Source of the DNA: Candidatus Scalindua sp.
Lineage (GTDB): Bacteria > Planctomycetota > Brocadiia > Brocadiales > Scalinduaceae
Direction: 5' to 3'
Assembly (NCBI GenBank): GCA_021776915.1
Contig: JAIQZU010000076.1
Span: 1-32,431 of the forward strand
DNA: 32,431 nt
In this document: positions 29,607 through 32,431 of the stretch, one piece after another
Position numbering within the stretch: the first letter of the stretch is position 1
How the letters are laid out: the number at the start of each line of letters is the position of its first letter
Position numbers and translations under genes: made by a program
The notes under the pieces: model-generated
What the model was told of the DNA's origin: nothing
Databases searched by the model: none
What the model saw: the letters and a program-made list of their open reading frames with translations, nothing else

Positions 29607-29744
29607 TAAGTTCTCAATAAGAAGAGGAAAACTTTTTAATTTTTTTTACCACCCCATTTCCCCTCCTTGCCAAGGAGGGGATTAAAGTCCTCGGCGCTTT
29701 TTGTCCGGGGAAGGGGAGGCTTTCCTCTTCTTATTGACAAGTTA
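29607..29744. mobile_element. MITE-like element with about 24-bp terminal inverted repeats
   Basis: The left end 29607-29630 (inner part CAATAAGAAGAGGAAA) and right end 29721-29744 (TTTCCTCTTCTTATTG) are reverse complements at 22 of 24 bases. The 90-base interior holds CCCCTCCTTG-C-CAAGGAGGGG (29660-29680, perfect) and the 27-base GC-rich core also found after rluA (29685-29711). No coding capacity. GTTA occurs at 29605-29608 and 29741-29744, but overlaps the ends, so a target duplication is unclear. Confidence 0.55.
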
Positions 29745-29790
29745 GGCCTTCGGCGAAATTTTTATGTCTTCATTCTTTCTGATAACAAGT

Positions 29791-29860
29791 GTCGGGCAAG
29801 AAACCCGACCTACGCGTAATAATTTAATATTTTTGTAGGGCGGGTTTCTTACCCGCCGAC
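29791..29860. repeat. Inverted pair of REP-like hairpin repeats
   Basis: 29791-29813 (GTCGGGCAAGAAACCCGAC then CTAC) and 29835-29860 (GTAGGGCGGGTTTCTTACCC then GCCGAC) are reverse-orientation copies of one short element. Each also forms its own hairpin. Confidence 0.65.
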
Positions 29861-29919
29861 TTTGAAATTCCTATACACGAACTTACGTATAAATCCGGAA
29901 GAAACATTGGAGTAAAAAG

Positions 29920-30789
29920 ATGCAAACAAAACGTCCCGATTGGCTCAGGGTTAAACTGCCGGGTGGCGAAGCATACCACAGGATGAAAAGCCTGTTAAGA
30001 ACTGCCAACCTGCACACGGTATGTGAAGAGGCTGTCTGTCCAAACATTGGAGAATGCTTCGGGCAGGGTACGGCGACATTTTTAATACTAGGAGATGCCT
30101 GCACACGGAGATGTAATTTTTGTGCAGTTGCTAAAGGAGTTCCATCAGCATTGGAGGAGGGAGAACCCGAAAAGATTGCACAGGTAGTTAAACAGTTAGG
30201 CCTGAGGCATGTTGTTATTACGTCTGTCACCAGGGACGACCTCCCTGACGGTGGTGCAGGCCACTACGCAAAGACAATAAAAGCCATCCGCACCCAAGAT
30301 CCTGCATGCACAATAGAAGTATTAATACCCGATTTCAAAGGTTCAGAGAATGCCCTCGAAATAGTTCTGAATGAAAGCCCACACATACTCAATCACAATC
30401 TTGAGACAGTACCGAGACTGTATCCGAACGTAAGACCGGGTGCCGACTACGAACGTTCGCTTAGTTTATTAGAGAGAGCAAAAGAGATTGATCCTGAACT
30501 AACTACCAAGTCCGGCCTCATCCTCGGCATGGGAGAGAAACATGATGAGATAATAGACGTGATGAAAGATATGAGAGACGTTGGATGTGACATACTTACT
30601 ATCGGACAGTACCTTTGCCCCGGTAAAGGGTTCCTGACAATAAAACGTTTCTACCATCCCGATGAATTCAGACACCTGAAATATGAGGGAGATAAGATGG
30701 GCTTCAGACATGTGGAATCAGGCCCGCTGGTCCGAAGCTCATATCATGCTGCAGAACAATTCAAGTTAACGCCTTTTGGACAGGAGTAA
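29920..30789 (+). CDS. lipA: Lipoyl synthase
   Basis: 289 residues, usual length. An N-terminal cluster C35, C40, C46 (CX4CX5C in TVCEEAVCPNIGECF) binds the auxiliary 4Fe-4S cluster that is sacrificed as sulfur donor. The radical SAM cluster is C61, C65, C68 (CTRRCNFC). Further motifs are TSVTRDDLPDGGA and the C-terminal RSSY (272-275) that supplies the serine ligand. It inserts two sulfurs into octanoyl groups on lipoyl domains. TTGGAG upstream of ATG 29920 supports the start. lipB is not adjacent. It is the last gene with the window's usual base composition. Confidence 0.97.
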   Translation: MQTKRPDWLRVKLPGGEAYHRMKSLLRTANLHTVCEEAVCPNIGECFGQGTATFLILGDACTRRCNFCAVAKGVPSALEEGEPEKIAQVVKQLGLRHVVITSVTRDDLPDGGAGHYAKTIKAIRTQDPACTIEVLIPDFKGSENALEIVLNESPHILNHNLETVPRLYPNVRPGADYERSLSLLERAKEIDPELTTKSGLILGMGEKHDEIIDVMKDMRDVGCDILTIGQYLCPGKGFLTIKRFYHPDEFRHLKYEGDKMGFRHVESGPLVRSSYHAAEQFKLTPFGQE

Positions 30790-30852
30790 CAAGATATACA
30801 AGATTTTTAATTTTTTTATAATACATTTTCACCCCTTAATAGTGAGGAAAAA

Positions 30853-30882
30853 CGAAACATTTAAATACTTGTAAATCAAGGA
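30853..30882 (+). promoter_or_regulatory. Repeated leader with archaeal-like BRE/TATA arrangement, copy 1
   Basis: CGAAACA followed by TTTAAATA (30860-30867), then CTTGTAAATCAAGGA. 27 of 30 bases match the stretch at 32370-32399. The TATA-like box ends 36 bases before the TPR start; counting about 24 bases down gives a start near 30891, just before GGAGACATTAAA. A bacterial promoter cannot be excluded. Confidence 0.45.
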
Positions 30883-30902
30883 ATACGTAAGGAGACATTA
30901 AA

Positions 30903-31481
30903 ATGCCATTAGATGCAGATTTACCAAAACTAGAAGGAATTGCAGATGTTTATTCTAATAATAACCTTAATAGACCTGCTTATGTGCAGACTATAAGTAA
31001 AGAGGAGATGGAAAAAAATAGTCTTACTAGCAAATTAAAAAAAATAGGGGCGACATTTGGAAAAACAATTGATGATGCTTTATTTGGGAATGCTTATGGG
31101 GAAGAATCTGATGGTGGGAATGTTGATTATGAAGCACTTGGAAATTGGGCAGAAAAAATTGATGCTTATAAGAATGCTGATATAGTAATTGCAAAATTAA
31201 AACAATATAAAGATGATAAAGAAAATAAAAGTAGTGAATTCTTCAATAATTTAGGTGTTGCTAATTATAGCATAAAAAATACTGATGAGGCTATCAAATT
31301 ATATAATAAAGGATTGGAATTTCATCCAGACAGTCCAAATATTTTATATAATTTAGGGGCTGCATTTTTTGATAAAAAAGAATATGAAAAATCATATGAA
31401 TTTTTTAAAAAAAGCAATGAAATAAAACCAAATCAAAAAGATACATTAAATTGGATAGATTATGTATCAAAAAGATTATAA
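30903..31481 (+). CDS. TPR-repeat protein
   Basis: 192 residues. No signal peptide is visible. Residues about 115-192 form two to three tetratricopeptide repeats: SEFFNNLGVANYSIKNTDEA, LYNKGLEFHPDSPNILYNLG, FFDKKEYEKSYEFFKKSNEI. The first 100 residues are charged and probably flexible (EEMEKNSLTSKLKKIGATFG, DGGNVDYEALGNWAEK). TPRs are protein-interaction scaffolds; a specific role cannot be given. AAGGAG lies before ATG 30903. The gene is strikingly AT-rich compared with lipA, and with the next gene it forms a compact pair 30 bases apart. Confidence 0.75.
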   Translation: MPLDADLPKLEGIADVYSNNNLNRPAYVQTISKEEMEKNSLTSKLKKIGATFGKTIDDALFGNAYGEESDGGNVDYEALGNWAEKIDAYKNADIVIAKLKQYKDDKENKSSEFFNNLGVANYSIKNTDEAIKLYNKGLEFHPDSPNILYNLGAAFFDKKEYEKSYEFFKKSNEIKPNQKDTLNWIDYVSKRL

Positions 31482-31484
31482 ATA

Positions 31485-31500
31485 GTACTTATTTAAGTAC
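31485..31500. repeat. Short palindrome between TPR and secreted-protein genes
   Basis: GTACTTA-TT-TAAGTAC sits in the 30-base gap after the TPR stop. No T tract follows, and no ribosome site is seen before ATG 31512, so translation of the next gene may depend on another signal. Confidence 0.4.
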
Positions 31501-31511
31501 CATTTATAAAA

Positions 31512-32273
31512 ATGAAAAAGGTATTTTATATATTCTTTATGGTGTTTATAACTATTATTCTTATTGTTAATTCTGCTGAACAAAAAGTACCTGGACCACC
31601 AACAGATACAACCACAGCTACATCAGAGCTCCAAAAATCTATGCAAAATGCCCTATATAGTGGAGAGTCATTTTCTGGCATTGTTGATTCTCCAATAACT
31701 TTAAAATCTGCATCTGGTAAAGATATTACTGTTCAAGGAGAGGTTGAAATAAGTAATAACAAAGTTACAGCTGGTCAGGTTAAACTCAATAAGGGTGATA
31801 TGGAAGATGTAACTGGATTAGAAACAAAAAAAGATGGATATACAGCTGATTCCGTAAACACTTTAAATCAAGATGGGAATACTATATCTGAAGGAAGTGG
31901 TATTGAATTAAAAAATCTTCCAGATTCAACAAATCAATTAACAGCAAACAATCTAAAATCCATAAAAACAAAAAACAACCTAAACTTCAAAGACATAAAA
32001 GGAGGGACATTTCTATTCAATCAACTTGGAGATTTAGAATCTGCTAAATTCAAATCATCAAATACCCAAACTAAAAACAATTTAAACCTAAAAGATGAAA
32101 ATGGAAACAATATAGTTGATTTTAATATAATAGACAATAATAAGGAATCATCAATAGACATAGAAAAACAATCCGACGGCTCTTATAAGATTACCACATC
32201 TAATCTCGAATCTACTTTTCATGGCAATGGGTTTAATGAATATGTTTTTGGGGAGAAATCTGTTATTGCATAA
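31512..32273 (+). CDS. Secreted low-complexity repeat protein, function unknown
   Basis: 253 residues. The N-terminal signal or anchor is hydrophobic at 3-20 (VFYIFFMVFITIILIV), with cleavage plausible after SA. The rest is rich in Asn, Asp, Ser, Thr and Lys and strand-forming. TKNNLNFKD (153-161) recurs as TKNNLNLKD (187-195), so there is an internal repeat of about 34 residues, suggestive of a beta-solenoid or surface protein. No known domain recognised. The style (ADSVNTLNQDGNTISEGSG) resembles surface proteins I associate with AT-rich, possibly archaeal or symbiont genomes; that is a weak impression. Confidence 0.7.
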   Translation: MKKVFYIFFMVFITIILIVNSAEQKVPGPPTDTTTATSELQKSMQNALYSGESFSGIVDSPITLKSASGKDITVQGEVEISNNKVTAGQVKLNKGDMEDVTGLETKKDGYTADSVNTLNQDGNTISEGSGIELKNLPDSTNQLTANNLKSIKTKNNLNFKDIKGGTFLFNQLGDLESAKFKSSNTQTKNNLNLKDENGNNIVDFNIIDNNKESSIDIEKQSDGSYKITTSNLESTFHGNGFNEYVFGEKSVIA

Positions 32274-32369
32274 ATAGATTCATTACATCCATTAATTTTA
32301 TTAGTTTTAGATATGATTTTTATTATTTAAAATTTTCTATTATTTACTACTATATAAAGACTAAATGAC

Positions 32370-32399
32370 CGAAAAGTTTAAATACTAGTAAATCAAGGA
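32370..32399 (+). promoter_or_regulatory. Repeated leader, copy 2
   Basis: CGAAAAG then TTTAAATA (32377-32384), then CTAGTAAATCAAGGA. It matches copy 1 at 27 of 30 positions. The ATG follows 23 bases after the TATA-like box, and AAGGAG sits between them. A leaderless or short-leader archaeal-type start, or simply a bacterial ribosome site, are both possible. Confidence 0.45.
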
Positions 32400-32406
32400 G
32401 ACTATT

Positions 32407-32431
32407 ATGAAACTTATAGATAAGTTAAAAA
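32407..32431 (+). CDS. Start of a further gene, cut by window end
   Basis: ATG 32407 opens a frame reading MKLIDKLK to the end of the window. It is supported by AAGGAG at 32395-32400 and by the leader shared with the TPR gene. The product cannot be identified from eight codons. Confidence 0.55.

Follow-up and report, generated by a model that had tools for sequence, protein, structure and literature searches.

How did an AT-rich segment, headed by what look like archaeal promoters, come to lie at the end of a planctomycete contig? The window analysed here is the entire 32,431-nucleotide contig of Candidatus Scalindua sp. (assembly GCA_021776915.1, contig JAIQZU010000076.1; C74 of genome G000), ending at 32431. 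The first-pass annotation, made from the letters alone, had left three origins for this segment: transfer from an archaeal symbiont, a chimeric contig or a native mobile island. The compositional shift that it described proved exact on recounting (25 of 60 G+C at 30301-30360 and 14 of 60 at 31261-31320). In the window, the AT-rich segment spans ~30,815-32,431 with 27.7% G+C, against 39.8% at 1-30789, and the lowest 1.5-kb stretch within the host part reaches 31.8%. This segment is only the left part of the whole feature: the last 71 bases of the window (32361..32431, plus strand) are exactly the first 71 bases of contig C84, and the island carries on through this overlap over positions 1-~7,000 of C84, with 23-34% G+C up to that point and 38-43% beyond it, where comEC lies on the minus strand. 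Measured from 30834, the island totals ~8.5 kb. The host genome is a fragmented draft (89 contigs, 3.79 Mb) in which the island is spread over two contigs, and the contig break, which falls in the repeated leader, could hide further collapsed copies of the gene pairs described below.

The island is placed between lipA and comEC, which are adjoining genes in related genomes without it. The left host flank is a lipA-like radical SAM gene (lipoyl synthase; 29920..30789, plus strand; Radical_SAM 5e-18, LIAS_N 1e-10) that is 91% identical to the lipA of the relative G011, and comEC is 85% identical to that of the same genome. These flanks are contiguous in the relatives that lack the island, with a gap of 308 bp in G011, 87 bp in G013 and ~470 bp in G002. 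In G001 the gap extends to 2.5 kb (L021:9933-12438) and, judged by eye, contains small toxin-antitoxin-like genes (MazF-like, CopG-like and others); because it is filled in this way, the lipA-comEC gap accepts insertions, which suggests an insertion hotspot. The intergenic region upstream of lipA (29640-29880 of the window) carries GC-rich repeat-like strings (CCCCTCCTTGCCAAGGAGGGG and similar).

Both junctions could be located closely. The left one is a zone between host and archaeal DNA (30790..30834, unstranded) with the breakpoint within ~30800-30834: a host-like part, GGACAGGA.T.ACA.GATA, is also present in G011 up to ~30805, and an island-like part, CTTAATAGTG-GG-AAAA-CGAAA, is also found upstream of C84:3192. 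A search for this left flank elsewhere in the genome retrieved no other copies, the sequence being otherwise unique. The right breakpoint lies at C84:6,998-7,024, and beyond it the flank, from C84:7025, matches repeats that are interspersed through the host genome. One such repeat (L006:7025-7081) sits at the 3' end of comEC, apparently lengthening the protein by ~18 residues, and further copies occur in C83, C36 and C86. The two island ends carry mutually resembling AT-rich stretches (left AGATTTTTAATTTTTTTATA, right TTATTTTTTAATATTTGG), and the island may have been joined via this short AT-rich similarity (microhomology). As regards an integrative mobile element, neither an integrase or transposase among the island open reading frames nor defined ends were found.

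Since host DNA is present at both junctions, an assembly error is very unlikely. In principle, DNA from an archaeon living alongside could have been wrongly joined to bacterial contigs, as might be expected in a draft of 89 contigs with a break inside the island. Nevertheless, such an error needs two independent wrong joins at one and the same host gap, across which relatives are continuous, and a native gene order in the archaeal piece between the joins. Moreover, the contig break sits in the array repeat, away from both junctions, and no archaeal TFIIB was detected in the host genome bin, so that there is no sign of a contaminating archaeal genome. The two-sided synteny excludes a chimera on one side, and a chimera on both sides of this gap is very unlikely. 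The chimeric contig proposed in the first-pass annotation can therefore be largely set aside, since the two host flanks are there and lie side by side in relatives that lack the island.

Five A-B gene pairs stand in tandem in the island, the last of them with the full-length B gene, and none of the ten reading frames is interrupted by a stop. In pair 1, gene A (30903..31481, plus strand) encodes 192 aa comprising an export-type leader that ends in NAYGEE and a TPR domain (TPR_1 2e-13); its identity to gene A of the archaeal loci L059 and L098 is 33-43% over 99-121 aa. Its partner, gene B (31512..32273, plus strand; 253 aa), is a shortened copy of a secreted protein, with 54% identity to the 519-aa copy at C84:5441-7000 over the part that aligns, and a low-confidence single-sequence model gives it an N-terminal hydrophobic helix (2-22) followed by strands, that is, a beta-rich fold; the single-sequence structure predictions were of poor quality (mean pLDDT 43 and 53). 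The other pairs follow on C84: gene A of pair 2 starts with an ATG near 32407 of the window and continues into C84:47-679, with B at C84:722-1504, followed by pair 3 (A, C84:1638-2327; B, C84:2340-3125), pair 4 (A, C84:3244-3780; B, C84:3823-4614) and pair 5 (A, C84:4748-5389; B, C84:5441-7000). Four B genes encode 253-263 aa and have a common stop point, FGE(K/N)S-x-IA, while the fifth and last encodes 519 aa. The first annotation had called the B product a secreted repeat protein; it is secreted, but the repetition lies among the tandem gene copies and not inside the protein. The end of the 519-aa gene is overlapped by a remnant of a third gene, C, an open reading frame starting MKKGQITLF at ~C84:6970 that continues into host DNA, so that only its first ~10 codons belong to the island.

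The leaders and the domains behind them do not go together. The gene A leaders of pairs 1 and 4 are 87% identical over 68 aa, and the remaining domains are unrelated (TPR versus an unnamed domain, the pair 4 protein being 49% identical over 106 aa to that of archaeal locus L095, E 5e-29). Gene B has no match in Pfam, NCBIfam, PHROGs or solved structures, and searches of PHROGs, PADLOC, NCBIfam and solved structures returned only generic TPR or weak chance matches. As judged from these searches, the array fits no known family apart from generic TPR.

The regions upstream of the pairs point to the archaea. An archaeal promoter has an AT-rich TATA box ~26 bases ahead of the transcript start, with a purine-rich BRE immediately 5' of the box. 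The leaders at 30853-30882 and 32370-32399 are identical at 27 of 30 positions, as claimed originally, and belong to the promoter and leader of pair 1 (30853..30902, plus strand; archaeal-type CGAAAC-ATTTAAATA, TATA centre 39 bases before the ATG) and of pair 2 (32362..32407, plus strand; archaeal-type ACCGAAAAGTTTAAATACTAGTAAATCAAGGAG, TATA centre 26 bases before the ATG). Across the five pairs, this distance is 26 bases in three and 39 in two. A genome-wide scan of the 3.79 Mb for GTTTAAATACTWGTAAATCAAGGA with up to three mismatches gave five matches, all in the island (two in the window and three in C84), and CCGAAANGTTTAAATA gave four exact matches, every one inside the island, although one C84 place in each count is the 71-base overlap and the distinct sites are one fewer. 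The reversed control for GTTTAAATACTWGTAAATCAAGGA gave none in the whole genome; the leader is therefore not a chance pattern, and it is confined to the island.

Outside this genome, a scan of 84,980 species genomes for the 21-base promoter string found 13 stretches, 12 of them archaeal by their labels (five Woesearchaeota, two Pacearchaeota, one Micrarchaeota, two Nanoarchaeota and two named only "archaeon"), and in several of these an ATG follows 25-29 bases after the start of the box. The 13th, labelled as an alphaproteobacterium, was discarded as a chance match inside an unrelated open reading frame. The BRE/TATA reading of the leaders is thus upheld on sequence elements, which are present in five of five leaders. 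The island shares with archaeal box A promoters the CGAAA element, the TTTAAATA box, the 26-base spacing in three of five pairs and identical 21-mers in Woesearchaeota, Pacearchaeota, Micrarchaeota and Nanoarchaeota. It differs from them in lying in a bacterial chromosome that has no archaeal TFIIB and in the 39-base spacing of two pairs.

The distribution of the proteins is in agreement with the promoters. As a single query, the 519-aa protein retrieved relatives (E 6e-9 to 4e-8) from the phylum to which a named Woesearchaeota genome belongs, and of the 353 genomes in the archaeal order containing another named Woesearchaeota genome (G071/L048), 23 held the gene B family in a profile search. 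No relatives of the family were found among 61 other genomes of the host order or among ~390 genomes of the host phylum, and the island was not found in the other members of the host genus that were examined. The comparison of archaeal and host lineages that the first-pass annotation had proposed therefore gives relatives in this archaeal order only. An alignment restricted to the island sequences (A1), scanned against the proteins of genome and viral collections, retrieved nothing, and neither did a profile including the archaeal sequences against viral contigs. A tree of 18 sequences nests the island copy in the archaeal family and groups it with G305, G476, G452 and G453 at 100/100 support; its long end branches do not pin down the donor. 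None of the genomes found comes close to the island as a donor, the amino-acid identities being 25-49%.

Composition (28-29% G+C versus 39-40%) and codon usage also separate the island from its surroundings, and the codon usage agrees with an archaeal origin. AGA and AGG account for 98% of arginine codons in the island, 56% in host genes and 91% in the archaeal loci, and of the two codon models, the archaeal one is the better fit for every island gene and the host one for 23 of 24 host genes, the remaining gene being even. These results leave little room for a native or mobile bacterial island whose promoter is archaeal-like by chance and whose genes the archaea took from bacteria. The insertions that the lipA-comEC gap takes in relatives, such as the one in G001, would suit such a history; nevertheless, it is already contradicted by the nesting within the archaeal family tree, the match of the promoter to archaeal ones, the lack of relatives in the host order and phylum and the lack of an integrase, a transposase or viral relatives, and we regard it as hardly credible.

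The reading that we prefer, with a probability of roughly 85%, is that a ~8.5-kb array of exported-protein genes from a DPANN archaeon, of the order containing Woesearchaeota, moved recently into the lipA-comEC gap and is probably silent there. On the sequence comparisons above, the insertion, its archaeal origin and its gene plan can be taken as established, and transfer from a DPANN archaeon, the first of the origins initially listed, is borne out by promoter, proteins, gene order and codon usage alike. We infer the joining mechanism, the expression state and the surface function. A piece of DPANN chromosome would have been inserted recently, probably by non-homologous joining, and would comprise the tandem A-B pairs with the full-length B last, ending some ten codons inside gene C. 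Each pair would be driven in the archaeon by its own BRE/TATA promoter; in the bacterium, the archaeal promoters are probably weak, and the island is most likely a silent passenger. Each leader also carries AAGGAG ahead of the ATG, usable by bacterial ribosomes, which could permit translation if transcription took place. The ten open genes and these motifs would fit DNA that the bacterium had retained and expressed for an advantage, for example as a decoy or as protection against an archaeal partner. A role maintained by selection is possible, but we consider it unlikely: composition and codons are unchanged, so that the transfer may be too recent for decay, and other members of the genus that were examined lack the island.

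Transfer of the array from a DPANN archaeon bears on the question of partners. Gene transfer between DPANN archaea and their partners has been reviewed (PMC6349945), and some Woesearchaeota or Pacearchaeota may be episymbionts of bacteria according to a 2021 study (PMC8204110). As in those cases, DPANN genes lie here inside the genome of another organism; unlike them, in which the partners are archaea or the DPANN gained bacterial genes, an intact archaeal locus with its promoters lies in a bacterium. No account of DPANN-to-bacterium transfer, or of such a cassette system, was found in the open-licence literature. Bacterial hosts of Woesearchaeota have been proposed only on indirect signs. A recent, intact locus for exported archaeal proteins within the chromosome of a bacterium amounts to a physical trace of contact and points to a candidate lineage of partners. 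Close contact of the bacterium with a DPANN archaeon is suggested by it, and the donor may have been a symbiont, as first supposed.

The native loci show what was transferred. The order gene A, gene B, gene C is found in L059, L060, L090, L091, L092, L093, L096 and L097 (in L060, with 194, 501 and 249 aa), where A combines an export leader with an interchangeable domain, B is secreted and beta-rich, and C is a membrane protein of the MKKxQITLF type. We define here a woesearchaeal A-B-C locus by an A gene with an export leader, a B gene of the A4 family and a C gene starting MKKxQ(I/V)TLF; the island conforms to it in A and B, and in C as judged from the first ~10 codons alone. These loci often carry tandem pairs with a shortened B, then a full-length B and gene C. 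The closest parallel to the island in layout is the archaeal L090 (G295; L090:5072-10466), with three A-B pairs whose first two B genes are short (227 and 238 aa) and whose last is long, followed by gene C (MKKTKAQLSIFIVLG); one leader reads GATTTAAATACTAGTAAAACAAAG. Behind the export leader, no fewer than four kinds of domain occur among the gene A products of different loci: TPR; thioredoxin-like (PF00085 4e-6 in L090); the domain of island pair 4 (L095, also L096 and L076); and one in L089, L090 and L091. Leaders are common to different domains (L060 and L089, 59% over 81 aa; two gene A of L091, 62% over 39 aa), and therefore the domains of gene A have been exchanged. The L093 leader is within 0.1 bit of the Tat-signal cut-off, and other leaders look similar.

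From export signals, gene order and domain exchange, the products of A, B and C, the last with a pilin-like N-terminus, would most likely assemble a variable cell-surface structure for attachment or interaction. Going further, the array might be a polymorphic system of domain-swapping cassettes for interaction of DPANN archaea with partners, the bacterium being or having been a host that captured the surface-protein locus of the archaeon itself by cell contact; this we hold to be doubtful. In polymorphic toxin systems, C-terminal toxin domains are accompanied by cognate immunity genes. The array resembles them in layout, as one leader is joined to different C-terminal domains and shortened cassettes precede a full gene. 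It differs in its domains, which are TPR, thioredoxin-like and two unnamed ones, and no toxin or immunity families were found in it in Pfam, NCBIfam or PADLOC; membership in these systems was considered and is not claimed. The transfer exposes a gene family of archaea that has not been described before, which is arranged in tandem arrays, carries interchangeable domains and is open to study as regards attachment or variation.

Some neighbours of the A-B-C loci recur, namely a diphthamide-synthesis gene, a small membrane protein and an amino-acid transporter-like gene. L092 (L092:3838-7816) adjoins the diphthamide-synthesis gene, and L089, L095 and L096 have similar neighbours by eye.
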